From: Sulfurimonas sp.
Lineage (GTDB): Bacteria > Campylobacterota > Campylobacteria > Campylobacterales > Sulfurimonadaceae
DNA: 12,799 nt
Assembly (NCBI GenBank): GCA_027044845.1
Contig: JALUBM010000298.1
Span: 1-12,799, forward strand
Direction of reading: 5' to 3'
The position numbers were made by a program, and so were the translations under genes. Shown here piece after piece: positions 147 through 12,799 of the stretch (the first letter of the stretch is position 1; the number at the start of each line of letters is the position of its first letter). The notes beneath the pieces were generated by a model, which saw only the letters and a list, made by a program, of their open reading frames with translations, did not search any database and was not told where the DNA came from.

Positions 147-434
147 ATGGATATAGCAGCTTTTTCAAATCAAGTAACAATTAAAGGTAATATTAAATCG
201 ATACAAGACTATCAAAAGATAAAAGAGCTTATAGACGATATAGTACAAACAAATAAGCAGATAACTCTTAATATTATAGATTCTATCTCTGTGACATCTT
301 CAGTTATTGGGTATTTTAATAAACTTATACTCAAAGATAGTGTTAATTTACAAATCAATGTCGGAGATGCACAGCTTATGGAACTTTTTGAGGATTTAAA
401 TCTTATTGCATTATTTAAAGTGAAAAAGATATAA
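147..434 (+). CDS. Small STAS-like anti-sigma-factor-antagonist-type protein
   Basis: A 95-residue soluble protein with the size and pattern of a single STAS domain: an opening beta strand (QVTIKGNI), a helix around 20-36, a strand LNIIDSISV (41-49), then [11 protein letters not shown] (50-60), a second strand VNLQINV and a C-terminal helix [17 protein letters not shown] at 50-52 lies where SpoIIAA-type proteins carry the DSSG motif with the phosphorylated serine, so Ser51 is the best phospho-site candidate. In known partner switches such a protein is phosphorylated by a GHKL kinase and dephosphorylated by a PP2C phosphatase, and both domains are encoded two genes downstream. The start has a good ribosome site (AGGA at 138-141). 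The stop is one base before the next ATG, so coupling with the chemoreceptor gene is very likely. The fold is inferred from pattern and context, and the target is unknown. Confidence 0.65.
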
Positions 435-435
435 A

Positions 436-2412
436 ATGACAATCAAAGGTAAACTCAATCTTATTACGGCAATTGTTATCTCTTTTGCTCTGGTAATTAT
501 AGCCTTGACTATCAACTCTGCATTAAAAGAAAAAGTAGTGGTACAACAGTCAAAAGAACTTAATGTAATATCGCAAAAATTAAGTCTTTTAATTCATGAA
601 ACTCAAAAAGAACGAGGAGCGAGTGCTGGTTATTTAGGCTCAAAAGGAAAGAAATTTGCCAATATTTTGCCTAAGCAAAGAAAACTAACAGATAAAAGGA
701 ATAAACAACTCAAAGCCTACTTATCTACATTGGATTTACAAACTTTTTCAAAAGAACTTAGAAGTGAAATTCAGAGCCTTGGGCAGGATATGCGTAAAAT
801 CAATCAAATCCGAAGCCATGTTGATAATTTTACGATTAGTATAAAAGAAGAAGTTTTTTATTATACAAAGATGAATAAAAAGATTCTTAATATTATTGCA
901 CTAAGTGCAAAATTAGCAAATACTCCAGAGTTAGTAAAGGCACTTGATTCTTATACAAACTTTTTGAAATCAAAAGAGAGAGCGGGGATAGAACGTGCTG
1001 TACTCAGTGCAACATTTGCCGCGGATAAGTTTACTCCAGGTATGTATGCAAAATTTATTACACTTACAGCGGAACAAGATGCATATACGGATGCATTTTT
1101 AAGTATGGCTACAGATAAAGCAAAAGAGCTTTATAAAACGACAATGAACTCTCCTATCGTGGATGAAGTCAATAAAATGCGAGAAATTGCAAAATCAAAA
1201 GCTAATCAAGGTGGCTTTGGTGTTGACAGTATTGTATGGTTTCAAACAATTACAAAAAAAATCAATCTATTGAAAAAAGTAGATGATAGCCTTGCTAGAA
1301 ATAATGATGCAATTTTAGCAAAAATAGAGTCAGGTTATGAGACGCGTACGGCAATTACGCTTGTAGGTTATATTGCTTTTGCAATTATTATTTTCATTAT
1401 TATTACGTTTATTAGTAAAGGTGTTAACAATAGCGTAAGAAGCTCTTTAGAAAAAATAGAGTGTGTTTCTAATGATTTAGATCTTACATACAACATAGTT
1501 GTTGAAGGAAATGATGAGATTTCTCAAATATCCAGAGCTTTACATACCATGATTATAGCATTTAAAGAAACGGTATATAATATAAGAGATGTATCTACTC
1601 GTACACAAAAAGAGTCTGAAAATCTTAATGATGTCGTGAAAGTATTAAAAGACAACAGTGAAGCAGAAGAGGAAAAAATTTCATCTGTGAATGAATTAAT
1701 TGCAGATGTTGGAAATCGTTCAAATTCTGTAGAAGAGGCAACGGTGAGTGTAACGGAAGATTTAAATAGTACTTTCAATGTTCTTGGCAGCTTTATAGAA
1801 AAACTTGATGCCGTAGTAAATTCTATTGAAAATGGCTCACAGCAACAACAAGAACTAGCCCAGAAAGTTGTATCATTATCAGAACAAACGGAAAATATTA
1901 AAGATGTTCTCGAAATTATTTCAGATATCGCAGACCAAACGAATCTGCTTGCACTTAATGCTGCTATTGAGGCAGCACGTGCTGGTGAACATGGACGTGG
2001 TTTTGCTGTTGTTGCGGATGAGGTAAGAAAATTGGCGGAGAGAACACAAAAATCATTAAGTGAAATCAGTGCAAATGTTAATTTGATTACGCAAAGTGTT
2101 GTTGAAATTGCCGAAGAGACAGATGTCACATCAAAAAATATTGGAGATATTTCCCAATCTGCTCAAGAACTTATAGCTTCATCAAGTGGAACAAAAGACC
2201 AACTTCTTCAAACAAAAGAGAGATCGAAAGAAGTTATGCATCAAAGTATTTATATAGCAACTAAAACGAAAGATTTAGTGAATGTAATGAATGAAATTAT
2301 AGATATTTCAACTACAAATAATGAACTGAGGACATCTGTTGATATGGTTGTTGTTAGTTTATCTCAAGATTCAGATATTTTGCAGACTGAACTTAGTAAA
2401 TTTAAAATATAG
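436..2412 (+). CDS. Methyl-accepting chemotaxis protein with NIT (nitrate/nitrite-sensing) domain
   Basis: A 658-residue inner-membrane chemoreceptor. In order it has a transmembrane helix at about 8-28, a periplasmic region at 30-303, a second transmembrane helix at about 305-327, a HAMP-like segment at about 332-385 and a long cytoplasmic coiled coil. The periplasmic part has the two hallmarks of the NIT domain: [18 protein letters not shown] (54-71) and a second half with [14 protein letters not shown] (181-194) and [12 protein letters not shown] (210-221). The highly conserved signalling tip is at 497-540 ([18 protein letters not shown], then [18 protein letters not shown]). No C-terminal CheR/CheB-tethering pentapeptide is visible. 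NIT domains are proposed to bind nitrate or nitrite, but the ligand here is unproven. The gene starts one base after the STAS gene ends and stops 14 bases before the phosphatase/kinase gene, so it is probably part of one operon and may signal to those partners as well as, or instead of, CheA. Confidence 0.93.
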
Positions 2413-2426
2413 CGAGATATTTTAGC

Positions 2427-3662
2427 GTGCAAAATTTCTCTAAAATAAAGACACCAGAAGAAAAAGAAGAATATACTATCTATCAAGAAAATTTGGCTTT
2501 TCAAAAAGAGCTGAATATTTTAAGAAATGATTTCTATTATAAAATGATAGATTCAAAAGATGTATCTTTGGTAGATTTTTTTTATCAACCTTTGGATATA
2601 CTTAGTGGTGATGCGTACACGGCAAGAATTATTGATGAACATAGAACATTTTATCTTTTAGTTGATGGCATGGGAAAAGGTCTTTCTGCCTCGTTAACGG
2701 CAATGTCTGTGACTATTTTTATCAATCATATTATAGATAAAATGATTGAGCATGAAAGTTTTAGCCTTGACATACTTGTAAAAGAAGCAATGGATTTTAT
2801 GAAACCTATATTGTTAGATGAAGAAGCTTTATCTATTGACTTTATTTTATTTGACACTTATTTTTCACAGTTAGATTATGCAAAATTTTCTATGCCTCCT
2901 TTTTTGTTTGCAGATAGTAGTAATAATATTACGAAAATTAAATCAAACAATCCTCCGATGAGTAAATGGACGCAGACTTACAATATAAACACTTATGCCG
3001 TGCAAAATATACATAAATTCCTTTTTTATACTGATGGCATTGTTGAAAATAGCACCAAAGATGGTCTGCCGTATAATAATTTTATTGAAAATGATTTTCG
3101 TACCTCGTTTACAAGAGAAGAGATGAAAGAAATAATTTTAGGTAAACTTACAGCACAAGAAGATGATTTAACATTCATATTCATTAACAAATTAGAATTA
3201 AATGAAAAGACTTTTATGTGTGAAAAAATCTTTGAGACAAATTTAGAAGCTGTGGAAGAAGCAAATGAGTGGCATATGGACTTTTGTAAAGATAAGCGTA
3301 GTAATATGGCCTTTAATGAACTTTTTACAAATGCGTATGAACATGGAAATCTGGGGATAGATGCTCAGACAAAACATAATCTTCTTGAAAAAGATGTTTA
3401 TTTTGAGACATTGAAACAATTTGAACAAAACTGCAATAAAAAAATTACAGTGAAAATATATAAAGTCAATAATGAAATTTCTGAATATATGGTGACACAA
3501 ATTATAGATGAAGGTAACGGCTTTGATACAAATATTTTAAGTACTATTTTTAGAAATTCTAAAAAATTCAATGGTCGGGGTGTTTTTGTATCAAGAAAAA
3601 ATTCTCTGGGGATATACTACAATTCAAAAGGTAACAGTGTACTCTTTTTAAATAAAATATGA
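2427..3662 (+). CDS. SpoIIE/PP2C phosphatase fused to a GHKL (RsbW-like) kinase domain
   Basis: A 411-residue soluble protein. A short helical lead (1-45) is followed by a SpoIIE-type serine phosphatase domain (about 46-258) with all the metal-binding motifs: SGD (60-62), DGMGKG (80-85), YTDG (201-204) and EDD (245-247). After it comes an HATPase_c/anti-sigma-factor-kinase domain (about 262-411) with an N box (NELFTNAYEHGN, 297-308), a G1 box DEGNGFD (361-367) and a GRG motif (383-385). Both halves look catalytically intact, so the protein could phosphorylate and dephosphorylate the same partner, most simply the STAS-like protein two genes upstream. This resembles HsbR-type switches, but the receiver domain they carry at the N-terminus is absent, leaving the NIT chemoreceptor as the obvious input. 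The start is GTG with only a weak ribosome site; the next in-frame ATG (Met40) lies too near the phosphatase domain to be preferred. Confidence 0.88.
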   Translation: MQNFSKIKTPEEKEEYTIYQENLAFQKELNILRNDFYYKMIDSKDVSLVDFFYQPLDILSGDAYTARIIDEHRTFYLLVDGMGKGLSASLTAMSVTIFINHIIDKMIEHESFSLDILVKEAMDFMKPILLDEEALSIDFILFDTYFSQLDYAKFSMPPFLFADSSNNITKIKSNNPPMSKWTQTYNINTYAVQNIHKFLFYTDGIVENSTKDGLPYNNFIENDFRTSFTREEMKEIILGKLTAQEDDLTFIFINKLELNEKTFMCEKIFETNLEAVEEANEWHMDFCKDKRSNMAFNELFTNAYEHGNLGIDAQTKHNLLEKDVYFETLKQFEQNCNKKITVKIYKVNNEISEYMVTQIIDEGNGFDTNILSTIFRNSKKFNGRGVFVSRKNSLGIYYNSKGNSVLFLNKI

Positions 3663-8221: not shown

Positions 8222-9235
8222 ATGGTACTTGTTACAGGTGGAGCAGGCTATATTGGCTCACATACATGTATAGAACTCAGTAAAGCAGGGTATGACTTTG
8301 TGGTATATGATAATCTTTGTAATGCTTCACTTGAAGCTTTACTACGTGTTGAAAAGATAACGGCTAAAAAGATTCCTTTTATTAAGGGGGATATCCGTGA
8401 TAAAGTTGCACTACAAAAAGTTTTTGATAATTATGATATTGATTCTGTAATACATTTTGCAGGGCTTAAAGCAGTTGGTGAATCGGTGCAAAAACCGTTA
8501 GAATATTACGATAACAATGTGTATGGAACGGTGGCTTTATGTGAAGTGATGCAAAAAAATGAGTGTAAAAATATAATTTTCAGCTCTTCAGCAACTGTTT
8601 ATGGTGACCCAAAAATTACTCCTATAAAAGAAGATTTCCCACTCAGTGCAACTAATCCATACGGCAGAAGTAAACTTTTTATAGAAGAGATACTACGGGA
8701 TATTTTTGTATCTAGTACCTCTTGGAAAATTATTTTACTGCGTTATTTTAATCCTGTAGGGGCACATGAATCAGGATTTATCGGTGAAGACCCAAATGGT
8801 GTGCCAAATAATTTGATGCCTTACATTGCACAAACAGCAGTCGGTACAAGAGAATATCTTAATATTTTTGGAAATGATTATGATACAAAAGACGGTACAG
8901 GAGTCAGAGATTATATCCATGTAGTCGATTTGGCAAAAGGGCATATTAAAGCATTGGAAAAACTTTTTGATATAAATGAAGTATTAACAGTGAACTTAGG
9001 AACGGGAAAAGGGTATTCTGTCTTAGATATGGTACATGCTTTTGAAAGAGCTTCAGGTAAAAAAATTCCCTATAAATTTATTTCAAGACGCTCGGGGGAT
9101 ATAGCAAAATGCTATGCAGACCCATCTTATGCAAAAAAAGTTTTGGACTGGAAATCTAAATATACTCTAGATGACATGTGCAAAGACAGCTGGCGTTGGC
9201 AGAGAAATAATCCTGATGGCTATAAAAAAGCTTAA
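8222..9235 (+). CDS. galE: UDP-glucose/UDP-N-acetylglucosamine 4-epimerase (GalE type)
   Basis: A 337-residue extended short-chain dehydrogenase, near the length of E. coli GalE. It interconverts UDP-hexose C4 epimers using tightly bound NAD. Motifs are the NAD-binding GGAGYIGS (6-13), GDIRD (56-60), HFAGLKAVGES (78-88), SSSATVYG (121-128), the catalytic NPYGRSK with Tyr147 and Lys151, RYFNPVGAH (174-182) and GVRDYIHVVDLAKGH (227-241). At the gate position matching E. coli Tyr299 the protein has Cys297 (in GDIAKCYAD), as human GALE has Cys307, so activity on UDP-GlcNAc/UDP-GalNAc is predicted as well as UDP-Glc/UDP-Gal. It lies four bases after the upstream gene, with no strong ribosome site, and is followed by a SPOR-TolC exporter and a PelF-like transferase. 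A role in GalNAc supply for a Pel-like polymer is inferred. Confidence 0.93.
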   Translation: MVLVTGGAGYIGSHTCIELSKAGYDFVVYDNLCNASLEALLRVEKITAKKIPFIKGDIRDKVALQKVFDNYDIDSVIHFAGLKAVGESVQKPLEYYDNNVYGTVALCEVMQKNECKNIIFSSSATVYGDPKITPIKEDFPLSATNPYGRSKLFIEEILRDIFVSSTSWKIILLRYFNPVGAHESGFIGEDPNGVPNNLMPYIAQTAVGTREYLNIFGNDYDTKDGTGVRDYIHVVDLAKGHIKALEKLFDINEVLTVNLGTGKGYSVLDMVHAFERASGKKIPYKFISRRSGDIAKCYADPSYAKKVLDWKSKYTLDDMCKDSWRWQRNNPDGYKKA

Positions 9236-9246: not shown

Positions 9247-9288
9247 AATTGAAAAAATATGAAGAAATGTCAAAAGAAAGGAAAAAGT

Positions 9289-11253
9289 ATGTTAAAAATT
9301 TATATACTGCTTTTTGCCTCTACGATATTATTTTCAAATACATTTAAACTTGGACATACGGTACAATATTTTACGTTTAGTAAAAGTAAGTTTAACGCCA
9401 AAAGATATGTCGAAGCAATACCAAAAAGTTTACGACAAAAGACGCATTTATGTAAAGAAGGTAGTTATATAGTTGCTTTTTATGGAAGTGCTTCTTCTTA
9501 CAATGAACTCTCTAATGAATTAAAAAAAGTTCGTAATTTTGGCTTTAATCAAGCATTTTTAACAAGAAGAACAAAGTGTCAAGAATATGCTAAAATAGTA
9601 AAAAAAATCAAAAATAGAAGGAGTGTAAAGCTGGATTATACGGTTCAGTATTTTACTTTTAGTAGAAATAAATTTAGTGACAAAAGGTATGTTCAAGCGA
9701 TACCAAAGCGTTTAATACAACAGACGCATTTATGCAAAGAAGGCAAATATATAGTAGCATTTTATGGGTCGGCTTCGTCCTATCAAGAGCTTGAAGATGC
9801 ACTAAAAAAAGTGCATGATACTGGCTTTAAACAGGCATTCTTAACAAAAAGAACAAAGTGTCAGGAGTATAAAGTATATAAAAAAATCACGATTACAAAA
9901 AAAGTTACGCCTAAGCCAGTCTTGAACGAACCAGTATTATTAAAAGGGTACCAGATTCCGAGATATGGACAAAAAAAAGAAGCGAATAATTATGGTACTT
10001 TGAATTTTCATAATTACCTTGATACTTTGTTTGAATATAATGAAAATGCACAAGAAATTTTTTATCAAAAGAAGATAGATTATCTTTTGAATGCAATTAA
10101 AAAAGATAAGTATGGATTTGATATTTTTCTCAATGCTTATGCAAGAACAGGTTCGTATATCTCTGCACAACAAACTAATCTGCCGACTACGCAGACTGGA
10201 AATAGTGTTGAATCTAGTGTAGGAACTTCAATAAATGCAAATAAAGTATTGTATGATGGAGAATATGCGTTAATAAATAAAAATTATGATATTTTAAATA
10301 AAAGACTTGCAGATATTAAGGTACTTAATTCCAAAGAGAAATTATTACTTTTTGGTGTAAACATATATTCAAATCTTTTTACCTCGCAAGAAAAGTTAAA
10401 ACTTTTTAAACAAATGTATGACAAACAAGATGAAATGCAAAAAAGCATTGAAAAAGCGTATAATCTTGGTGCGACATCTACATTAAATTATATAGATTCC
10501 AAAAATGATTTGCGAGATTTGAAAAAAGCTGTTTTGTTGTTAAAATATGCCCATTTGCATAATGAATATATTTTAAGGCATAGTATAAAAGCCAAAAAAG
10601 AAAAAAAATATAAACTCATGCCACAGAAAATAGCTTTTTACTATAATTCTTTAAGTGATTTACAAAAGCAAGCAATACAAAACAGTAGTGATATAGCGTT
10701 GGAATCAAACAAGTTAAAGATGAATCAAACAGATTTTCTTGCACAAAAGAGGCGATATTATCCAAGTGTCACTTTTAATTCACATTTGGGATATGGTGCT
10801 TCAAATGATGCACTCTTTTTTAAAAATTTTAACAATACAGGATTCTCGTCATATTGGGAGTTGGGTTTAAATGTTAATATTCCTTTGTATAATAGAGGTG
10901 ATATAGTCTTAAATAAAGAAAAAGAACTGCATTCTATTTTACTGCAAAAAAATGTTCTTTCTCTTAAAACAAGAGAAGTCTTAATAGAAGTAGAACGTTC
11001 CTATCACTCTTTGCAAATGATACGCGAGCAGCAGGATATACTCCAAGAACAGGTGGCACTATTACGTAAAAAAATAAAAATTACAACAAAGTTGTATCAT
11101 GCTGGAGCTATACAGTATCGTGATTACTCGGATGCCGTAAAAAATTATTTAGCATACAAAAGTCAAGAAATTGATTTAAACCAAAGATATATAAAAGAAA
11201 CATTTTTATTGGCAACACTGATAGGAAAAAGAGAGTTGTATGGGGAGAATTAA
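9289..11253 (+). CDS. Two SPOR-like repeats fused to a TolC-type outer-membrane channel
   Basis: A 654-residue exported protein. A signal peptide at about 1-17 (MLKIYILLFASTILFS) leads into two similar 80-residue repeats (21-100 and 115-194). Each has VQYFTFS, KRYV, AIPK, THLCKEG, YIVAFYGSASSY, GF.QAFLT and TKCQEY. The pattern fits SPOR domains, which bind bare glycan strands of peptidoglycan. Each repeat has two conserved cysteines that could form a disulfide in the periplasm. After a linker, about 235-650 resembles an outer-membrane efflux protein: long helices with EKAYNLGATSTLNYIDSKNDL and TTKLYHAGAIQYRDYSDAVKNY, and strands such as YYPSVTFNSHLGYG and GLNVNIPLYNRGD. I chose the ATG at 9289 because it has a ribosome site (AGGA, 9279-9282) and starts directly at the signal peptide; an upstream in-frame ATG at 9259 would add ten charged residues. 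The 3' end overlaps the PelF-like gene by 14 bases. It may export the polymer or another substrate. Confidence 0.82.
   Translation: MLKIYILLFASTILFSNTFKLGHTVQYFTFSKSKFNAKRYVEAIPKSLRQKTHLCKEGSYIVAFYGSASSYNELSNELKKVRNFGFNQAFLTRRTKCQEYAKIVKKIKNRRSVKLDYTVQYFTFSRNKFSDKRYVQAIPKRLIQQTHLCKEGKYIVAFYGSASSYQELEDALKKVHDTGFKQAFLTKRTKCQEYKVYKKITITKKVTPKPVLNEPVLLKGYQIPRYGQKKEANNYGTLNFHNYLDTLFEYNENAQEIFYQKKIDYLLNAIKKDKYGFDIFLNAYARTGSYISAQQTNLPTTQTGNSVESSVGTSINANKVLYDGEYALINKNYDILNKRLADIKVLNSKEKLLLFGVNIYSNLFTSQEKLKLFKQMYDKQDEMQKSIEKAYNLGATSTLNYIDSKNDLRDLKKAVLLLKYAHLHNEYILRHSIKAKKEKKYKLMPQKIAFYYNSLSDLQKQAIQNSSDIALESNKLKMNQTDFLAQKRRYYPSVTFNSHLGYGASNDALFFKNFNNTGFSSYWELGLNVNIPLYNRGDIVLNKEKELHSILLQKNVLSLKTREVLIEVERSYHSLQMIREQQDILQEQVALLRKKIKITTKLYHAGAIQYRDYSDAVKNYLAYKSQEIDLNQRYIKETFLLATLIGKRELYGEN
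9349..9588 (+). repeat. SPOR-like repeat unit 1 (80 codons)
   Basis: First copy of a tandem domain duplication within the exporter gene. It aligns with the unit at 9631-9870 without gaps at protein level, including both cysteines. The DNA differs at many third positions, so the duplication is old and both copies are kept by selection on the protein. Confidence 0.85.
9631..9870 (+). repeat. SPOR-like repeat unit 2 (80 codons)
   Basis: Second copy of the duplicated domain, separated from the first by a short basic linker of 14 residues (AKIVKKIKNRRSVK). It shares the THLCKEG, YIVAFYGSASSY and TKCQEY segments with unit 1. Confidence 0.85.
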
Positions 11254-12730
11254 AATAGTTTGGACAGGTGAGGGTACCTATCCTTACACTACGGGAGGGG
11301 TAAGCACTTGGGCTGATATTTTAATGCATGAACTCAAAAATATAGATTTTGTTCTTATCCCTATACAGATGCATCCTTATGTTAAATTAAAATTTGACAT
11401 TCCTCCTAATGTAGTAGATATTTTAAATGTACCGCTTTGGGGGACGGAAGAGCCTATAGAATACATACGAAAAATAGAATTTTCTAAGATATATGAAGCA
11501 AAAATTAAAACGCAGGTCGATAATCATATTGGAGTTTTAGAACCTATTATAATACTTGTACTAGAACATATATTTCGTCATAAAAATGATTTGGAAGCTT
11601 TAGGCAATGCTCTGTATGAGTTTTATGAGTATTTTCAAATATATGATTATTATGAAACATTTCGTAGTGAAAGATTGTGGAATATTTATAAAGATTATAT
11701 ACTTAAACATTATGAAAAAGTAGAAGAAGATGTGCCTACTGTTTTTGATATGATAGAGGGATTGCGTTATTTATATAGATTCTTTATATCTTTGTTGCCT
11801 ACACTACCAAAAGCAGATATATATCATTCGTCTGCCGCTGCTTTTTGTGGACTCTCTTGTGTAATAGCTAAAAAAAAGTTTGGAAGTAAGTTTTTATTGA
11901 CAGAGCATGGTGTTTACATACGAGAACAATATTTAGCAGCATCGAGAAATCAAATGCCGCTTCGTACAAAAGAATTTCTTATGGGACTTATAACTCTGGT
12001 TTCAAAATTGAATTTTCATTTTGCAGATATTGTCTCTCCTGTATGTGATTATAACTCAAGATGGGAAAAAAAATGGGGTGTGGATGAGAAAAAGATTTAT
12101 ACAATTTATAATGGCATAGATACAAATGTTTTCAAACAATTTAAAGTACAAAAAGAAGAAGAGAGACCGACAGTTGTGATGGTTGCAAGAATTGACCCGC
12201 TCAAAGATATAGAAACATTTATAAAGACTGCACAACTTGTCACAAAAGAGATACCTGATGTGCTTTTTAAACTTTATGGTCCTATAGTAGATGAAAAATA
12301 TTATCATCTTTGTCAAAAATTGGTAAAAGAACTTGAAGTGGAGAAGAATTTTGTATTTTCAGGATTGACCAATAGTCCACAGAGTGCTTATAATGAGGGT
12401 GATGTTGTTATGCTGACAAGTATTTCAGAAGCTTTCCCTTTTGTTGTAATTGAGGCAATGGCTTGTGAAAAGGTCGTTATTTCATCGGATGTCGGGGGAA
12501 CAAAAGAGGTGCTTGAAGGATTTGGGTTTGTTGTGAGACCAAAGGCATATGCCGAGTTTGCCGAAAAAGTAATTTATATATTAAAAAATCCTGATATAGC
12601 TTTGGAAATGGGACACGATGCAAGAGAAGCAATTCTCAATGGGTTTACTATAGAAGATATGGTCGAGAACTATGGACGCTTATATAAAAATTTGTATAAT
12701 GAATTTAAAGAGCAAAAAGGGCGACTATGA
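11240..12730 (+). CDS. pelF: PelF-like GT4 glycosyltransferase
   Basis: A 496-residue soluble glycosyltransferase of the GT4 (GT-B) family, with the features of PelF, the cytosolic enzyme that polymerises the Pel polysaccharide from UDP-activated sugars. The N-terminal domain opens with KIVWTGEGTYPYTTGGVSTW (5-24), where PelF proteins have an EGTYPY..GGVS.W motif. It also has DIYHSSAAAFCGL (193-205) and TEHGVYIREQY (221-231). The C-terminal nucleotide-sugar domain has YNGIDTNVF (290-298), VARIDPLKD (315-323), LYGP (345-348) and the EX7E motif SEAFPFVVIEAM (396-407; Glu397 and Glu405). The start overlaps the exporter gene by 14 bases, and the stop overlaps the next start as ATGA, so the three genes are translationally coupled. 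PelG, PelD, PelE and PelA are not visible here, so assignment to a complete Pel system depends on what lies beyond the window edge. Confidence 0.85.
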   Translation: MGRIKIVWTGEGTYPYTTGGVSTWADILMHELKNIDFVLIPIQMHPYVKLKFDIPPNVVDILNVPLWGTEEPIEYIRKIEFSKIYEAKIKTQVDNHIGVLEPIIILVLEHIFRHKNDLEALGNALYEFYEYFQIYDYYETFRSERLWNIYKDYILKHYEKVEEDVPTVFDMIEGLRYLYRFFISLLPTLPKADIYHSSAAAFCGLSCVIAKKKFGSKFLLTEHGVYIREQYLAASRNQMPLRTKEFLMGLITLVSKLNFHFADIVSPVCDYNSRWEKKWGVDEKKIYTIYNGIDTNVFKQFKVQKEEERPTVVMVARIDPLKDIETFIKTAQLVTKEIPDVLFKLYGPIVDEKYYHLCQKLVKELEVEKNFVFSGLTNSPQSAYNEGDVVMLTSISEAFPFVVIEAMACEKVVISSDVGGTKEVLEGFGFVVRPKAYAEFAEKVIYILKNPDIALEMGHDAREAILNGFTIEDMVENYGRLYKNLYNEFKEQKGRL

Positions 12731-12799
12731 GTCAAAAAAATGATGAAGATTTAAGTGCTTTATATAATGCCATCACCAAAGAGCGGGGCAAACCGTTGG
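12727..12799 (+). CDS. 5' end of an unidentified protein (partial)
   Basis: An ATG overlaps the PelF-like stop (ATGA) and the frame stays open to the window edge. The 24 visible residues (MSQKNDEDLSALYNAITKER, then GKPL) show no signal peptide and are hydrophilic. They do not match the start I would expect for PelG. The coupling predicts a partner of the PelF-like enzyme, for example a PelD/PelE-type protein or an accessory factor. Confidence 0.7.
   Translation, partial: MSQKNDEDLSALYNAITKERGKPL

Follow-up and report, generated by a model that had tools for sequence, protein, structure and literature searches.

How would a Pel-type polysaccharide leave a Gram-negative cell in which the synthase gene lies next to a gene for a TolC-type channel instead of pelB? 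The question is raised by a complete 12,799-base contig (JALUBM010000298.1, assembly GCA_027044845.1; hereafter the window) from a Sulfurimonas-type genome that is rated 64% complete. An earlier note on this DNA described a PelF-like transferase gene that overlaps a TolC-type gene and lies behind galE, and family scores and coordinates confirm this arrangement (Table 1). The note took it as a sign of a different secretion route for a Pel-like polymer, perhaps one that is typical of Campylobacterota. Our analysis makes it probable that the window shows the first part of a dedicated machinery for assembling and exporting a polysaccharide, with a TolC-type channel, and export of a PelF/PelG polymer through this channel is the likeliest reading.

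The channel protein matched Pfam OEP with 91.6 bits (cut-off 22), and the domain (PF02321) was present in all 25 channel members. The solved structures nearest to the channel core are TolC, SilC, and CusC, with TolC structures found at E 2.3e-17, and the score for the type I secretion TolC family (TIGR01844) was below the curated cut-off (43.1 bits vs 225.15). The window PelF scored 162.1 bits with NCBIfam PelF (cut-off 100) and 134.4 bits with Pfam DUF3492 (cut-off 23.3), and in hhalign comparisons the divergent PelF matched canonical PelF over the whole length (probability 100, E 1.9e-45, 26% identity). The frames of the two genes share 14 bases in the window. When the pelF start was set at the methionine closest to the conserved EGTYP motif, the overlap was 8 or 14 bases in 27/27 Campylobacterota loci, and in two Nitrospirota loci it was 4 and 1 bases, so it is conserved and not a product of chance. 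In the window channel, Asp occupies both candidate positions for the aspartate ring of TolC; as these positions are variable among relatives, no inference was drawn from them.

As the earlier note had anticipated, pelG does follow pelF. Bases 12727–12798 of the window match the start of a divergent PelG (E 4.8e-4), with only the first 24 codons (73 bases) present. In the orthologous loci of the nearest relative, G033, and of G016 and G053, whose PelF proteins are 93%, 74%, and 68% identical to that of the window, pelF is followed by pelG, a lipoprotein gene, and genes for a ~720-residue membrane protein and a membrane HD-GYP protein. The ~720-residue protein (722 residues) has a glycosyltransferase-C (GT-C) fold with an acidic residue in the first external loop. 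The suggested survey for pelF beside a TolC-type gene and without pelB was made as a scan of one genome per species, which gave 43 loci. The direct order tolC-pelF-pelG was found in 29 of them, 27 from Campylobacterota and two from Nitrospirota. The other 14 loci comprise four from Kryptonia, four from Bacteroidota, four on archaeal or actinobacterial contigs, one from Bacillota, and one at a contig edge, which holds the tolC gene and only the first pelF codons. Among the 27 Campylobacterota loci, the lipoprotein gene comes after pelG in 23 (the remaining four end inside pelG), the GT-C gene is next in 21 (two more end before it), and an HD-GYP gene is seen in 15.

A second survey covered 398 genomes drawn evenly from the order, some of which are also behind the 29 loci, with thresholds that we chose (PelG E ≤ 1e-10, TolC subfamily E ≤ 1e-30); two to three candidates were scored per genome, which left weaker paralogues out of the count. 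We found the TolC subfamily in 22/398 genomes and divergent PelG in 20/398, and all 20 PelG carriers have both, so that in the genomes sampled the two occur one-to-one, apart from two TolC matches without PelG, of which one is on the window's own contig and the other lies at a contig edge (G106). In each of the 20 genomes, 1452–1506 bases separate the two genes, which is the size of pelF. The hypergeometric P of the co-occurrence is 9e-32 with kinship among genomes ignored; since the genomes are related, this value says only that the two genes are very tightly associated throughout the five families concerned. The position of TolC ~1.5 kb from divergent PelG in 20/20 genomes makes a stray efflux channel less likely and favours a different route of export, and such a route for a Pel-type synthase is, as far as sequences can tell, well supported by the linkage.

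Canonical Pel components were sought in 23 carrier genomes (the 22 from the order survey and G033), including 10 with a completeness of 98% or more. The PelB barrel (PF24604), which according to the earlier note might have lain just outside the window, was found in 0/23 carriers and in none of the fetched loci, and the same runs found it in 18 of 60 relatives and in 38/398 genomes of the order. PelD, the receptor for cyclic di-GMP (c-di-GMP; PF16963), was found in 0/23 carriers, compared with 5/5 canonical controls in the same run. GH114, the PelA hydrolase family, was present in 7/23 carriers, each time on another contig or distant from the locus. The homologues of PelD, PelE, and PelA that were expected after pelF were not seen in the TolC-linked loci; PelE was looked for by phmmer with two canonical PelE proteins, which gave no best match in the loci, and no family search was made for PelC or PelE. 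An ordinary pel locus with PelD, PelF, PelG, GH114 PelA, and the PelB barrel is present in a genome of the same genus (L038), and another genome of the order (L037) has canonical pel (PelD, PelF, PelG, GH114, and PelB). Among the 60 relatives, the 18 with PelB are the identical 18 with PelD. These 18 genomes and the two loci indicate that the phylum does use PelB. With divergent PelG in 20/398 genomes of the order and PelB in 38/398, the TolC variant does not represent the rule in Campylobacterota. We also considered whether the two systems exclude each other: there is no overlap between the 20 carriers and the 38 PelB genomes, but the chance P is 0.13, and therefore no exclusion is claimed. 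Since carriers and canonical-pel relatives occur within one genus, the two export solutions are directly comparable.

The phylogeny of PelF agrees with a common origin of the TolC-linked loci. In a tree of 53 PelF-type rows, several long branches of which were flagged by the tool, all 30 TolC-linked rows, including the window, form a single clade (support 100/100), and eight canonical Campylobacterota rows fall in another group. The closest outgroups are from Kryptonia and Bacteroidota, with no recognised TolC gene directly upstream. The Kryptonia locus L073 has a GH114 gene close to pelF-pelG (60.5 bits), and the Bacteroidota locus L078 has a partial GH114 at the contig end (24.0 bits, below the cut-off of 27). 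Because canonical PelA in the L037 and L038 loci also carries a GH114 domain, these outgroup genes hint that Pel-like chemistry exists in the wider family; for the TolC clade itself they carry no such hint. The outgroup PelG proteins of L073 and L078 had no Pfam match. Three Kryptonia loci (L071, L072, and L073) contain two adjoining PelF-type genes, one from the canonical side (~400 amino acids) and one from the divergent side (~515 amino acids), and the double-pelF locus of L073 is surrounded by GH114, SpoIIE phosphatase, and DUF2194 genes.

A pathway can be proposed from these gene contents. In the cytoplasm, PelF would polymerise a UDP-sugar into a polymer, probably of N-acetylhexosamine, and the divergent PelG would carry it across the inner membrane. 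In the periplasm, the GT-C enzyme would attach a sugar taken from a polyprenyl-phosphate carrier. The further genes of the G033 locus encode a PpgS-like GT2 (related to the polyprenyl-phospho-GalNAc synthase PpgS with 210.5 bits, below the cut-off of 370), a small membrane protein, a FemAB-like protein, a polysaccharide deacetylase, and an LPG-synthase-type membrane protein; the GT2, the FemAB-like protein, and the deacetylase may modify the polymer further. The polymer would exit through the TolC-type channel, which would replace the PelB barrel and its TPR scaffold and may contact PelG directly, and SPOR, AMIN, or OmpA domains would tether the channel, the partner lipoprotein, or both to peptidoglycan. 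The HD-GYP protein may replace PelD as the c-di-GMP link. Both the HDIGM and HHExxDGxGYP patterns are present in 14/16 HD-GYP proteins of TolC-linked loci, the exceptions being L052, without the second pattern, and L065, which reads HDSGN at the first HD match. The GT-C gene of G053 (L032:14920-19510) is split as 496 + 170 residues, with the pair duplicated in tandem, and L069:9014-13394 has GT-C genes in tandem, one with Gln replacing the conserved Asp.

The GT-C enzyme was not foreseen in the earlier note, and neither were the SPOR and OmpA wall-binding modules that are located on the channel or the lipoprotein, depending on the lineage. In the window, the channel contains two tandem 88-residue repeats that are identical at 64/87 aligned positions. 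Pfam made no SPOR call for them, and they were missed by both HMMER profiles (channel-derived and lipoprotein-derived); hhalign against a combined profile of orthologous SPOR-type domains gave a probability of 77% and a pairwise E of 2e-5, and the double repeat is probably a diverged SPOR-type form. These repeats are the SPOR part of the SPOR-TolC label in the earlier note. Pfam detected SPOR in seven and AMIN in one of 25 channels, and OmpA in 11 and SPOR in two of 24 lipoproteins. A profile of 17 channel N-termini matched the lipoprotein C-termini of L063, L065, L067, and L068 (best E 1e-11, weakest 0.01; SPOR-type profile E values were calculated for 1000 sequences), and the lipoprotein-derived profile found 18/31 channels at E ≤ 1, 14 of these below 0.01. 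In L065, L067, and L068, the SPOR-type domain is in the lipoprotein and none is in the channel; in L044 and L045, the lipoprotein has OmpA and the channel has no SPOR-type domain; the ~300-residue lipoproteins (Nitratiruptor type) have neither, and their channels have SPOR. From this complementary distribution, the wall-binding module appears to have moved between the channel and the lipoprotein, by lineage. In our reading, attachment to the wall is important and can be provided by either of the two components. The lipoprotein of L068 (L068:7755-10064) has four successive SPOR-type repeats. For the N-terminal domain of the lipoproteins, a whole-protein fold search was dominated by the OmpA part, and an OmpA-less profile gave nothing credible in the PDB; profile comparison did not support its origin as a relict of the PelA alpha/beta (ThuA-like) domain (probability 0.2% vs canonical PelA and 3.5% vs a DUF2194 protein).

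Several observations weigh against the export of a Pel-like polymer by this channel. The PelG ortholog of the window's own group scored 21.4 bits with Pfam PelG (PF16933, cut-off 29), a family that was matched by 10/19 divergent members at E ≤ 0.1 (best 2e-9). The hhalign comparison of divergent with canonical PelG, already weak with three sequences, gave 2.4% with 19, yet it is colinear over 402 columns. In the Nitrospirota loci, the genes for the lipoprotein and the GT-C enzyme either sit in another position or have diverged. GH114 was not seen in the Campylobacterota TolC-linked loci, which therefore do not demonstrate Pel chemistry. The proposal of a different secretion route for a Pel-like polymer is supported as to the route by the lack of PelB matches in the carriers and the tie of TolC to pelF/pelG; the Pel-like nature of the cargo is hypothetical. 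In addition, TolC-type proteins usually pair with a periplasmic adaptor, and no adaptor or pump genes were recognised among the G033 neighbours scanned, the remaining genomes not having been searched for adaptors.

Some of these points lend themselves to another explanation, which survives best among the alternatives and which we regard as possible, if somewhat doubtful: PelF and the GT-C enzyme make a different glycan, e.g. a wall- or lipid-linked heteropolymer, so that TolC exports a product that is not Pel-like. The far divergence of PelG would fit this, as would the GH114 genes in only seven carriers and outside the locus, and the GT-C, PpgS-like GT2, and FemAB-like genes, which are not in the Pel descriptions compared. 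However, PelF is homologous over its full length, and the outgroup Kryptonia locus pairs pelF-pelG with GH114, the family of the PelA hydrolase part. We consider it unlikely that the channel serves efflux or type I secretion and shares the operon by chance, with the polymer exiting by another, unrecognised porin. TolC proteins are multi-purpose, and the core here, an ordinary OEP domain, has TolC, SilC, and CusC as the nearest structures, but in the order survey the subfamily did not turn up apart from this pelF/pelG pair, its frame overlap with pelF is conserved, and the G033 neighbours include no recognised pump or adaptor gene. An ordinary pel system with PelB, PelC, and PelD genes elsewhere in the genome is very improbable, since the incompleteness of the window's genome and the GH114 genes elsewhere in seven carriers are outweighed by the lack of PelB and PelD matches in 23 carriers, 10 of them at least 98% complete, by the five controls positive for PelD, and by the position of PelF in another clade.

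The proposed export of a PelF/PelG polymer through a TolC-type channel can be compared with known systems. As in the Pel system of Pseudomonas aeruginosa (PelABCDEFG), a DUF3492 PelF adjoins a PelG-type gene and a c-di-GMP-related protein is encoded in the operon; unlike there, a TolC-type channel takes the place of PelB/PelC, PelD was not found, PelG is very divergent, and there is an extra GT-C enzyme and a lipoprotein. The polymer of the canonical Gram-negative system is a partly deacetylated alpha-1,4-GalNAc chain. The Gram-positive pelDEADAFG locus of Bacillus cereus, according to the available part of PMC13254593, likewise has a PelF-PelG core without PelB and the deacetylase as a separate gene, but it belongs to single-membrane cells, in which no outer-membrane channel is needed, and has PelD and PelE. 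The Pel-like operon of syntrophic sulfate reducers, in the accessible sections of PMC10553843, has PelF/PelG and, in the place of PelD, a different membrane protein; however, PelA/PelE homologues are reported, and those sections mention no TolC-type gene. Gram-negative synthase-dependent exopolysaccharide systems are reported to use a beta-barrel with a TPR scaffold, and three polysaccharide outer-membrane export systems are named in the available excerpt of PMC9601211 (OPX, beta-barrel with TPR, and composite OPX/beta-barrel); they serve the same outer-membrane step, but none of those named there is a TolC-type alpha-barrel channel. TolC of Sinorhizobium meliloti is reported to be needed for exopolysaccharide secretion (PMC2912261, in the portion available) and is, by analogy, a precedent for TolC in polymer export, although it also secretes protein, whereas the channel described here is encoded within the synthase operon and did not turn up apart from it. 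The word TolC is absent from the main texts of PMC7112194, PMC13254593, and PMC12141448, and among the matches listed from the open-licence literature, no title or abstract deals with PelF/PelG together with an exporter of TolC type.

We regard the system as a new form of synthase-dependent export, and whether it forms a separate class hinges on channel docking to PelG without an adaptor. In some sulfur-oxidising and hot-vent bacteria, Pel-like enzymes seem to make a slime polymer that would be exported by a drug-pump-type channel. If this is true, the one-to-one pairing of a synthase with a TolC-type channel would widen the known cargo of TolC, and these Campylobacterota would gain a distinct matrix pathway. 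Among the 120 listed of 186 clusters of divergent PelG, the named ones are hypothetical proteins, except for one labelled as an MFS permease, and the system is thus missed by current annotation. Divergent PelG is also on record for two cultivated bacteria, Nitratiruptor sp. YY09-18 and Caminibacter pacificus.

In the window, galE lies upstream of tolC-pelF, and its product is a possible supplier of UDP-sugar for the locus. Only the window, L044, and L045 have it beside the locus, and it is therefore not a fixed part of the system. The window GalE has Cys where Escherichia coli GalE has Tyr299; a Cys-type residue at this position presumably goes with the use of N-acetylated UDP-sugars.

Table 1. 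Coordinates of the galE-tolC-pelF-pelG region in the window
Feature	Coordinates	Strand	Evidence or remark
galE, UDP-glucose 4-epimerase family	8222..9235	+	NCBIfam galE 466.7 bits, cut-off 262.3
TolC-type outer-membrane channel, signal-peptide-like start, N-terminal repeats	9289..11253	+	Pfam OEP; longest open reading frame 9259..11253
SPOR-like repeat 1 of channel protein	9343..9606	+	hhalign
SPOR-like repeat 2 of channel protein	9625..9888	+	hhalign
OEP (outer membrane efflux protein) domain, top-scoring stretch	10651..11226	+	Pfam, residues 465-656 of the open reading frame from 9259
pelF, GT4 glycosyltransferase with DUF3492; first 14 bases shared with channel gene	11240..12730	+	NCBIfam PelF, Pfam DUF3492
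Divergent pelG, 5' end only (contig ends)	12727..12799	+	4-base overlap with pelF

At the other end of the window (147–3662), three consecutive genes encode a 95-residue protein without a Pfam match, a NIT-domain chemoreceptor, and a SpoIIE-type phosphatase with a weak HATPase match.

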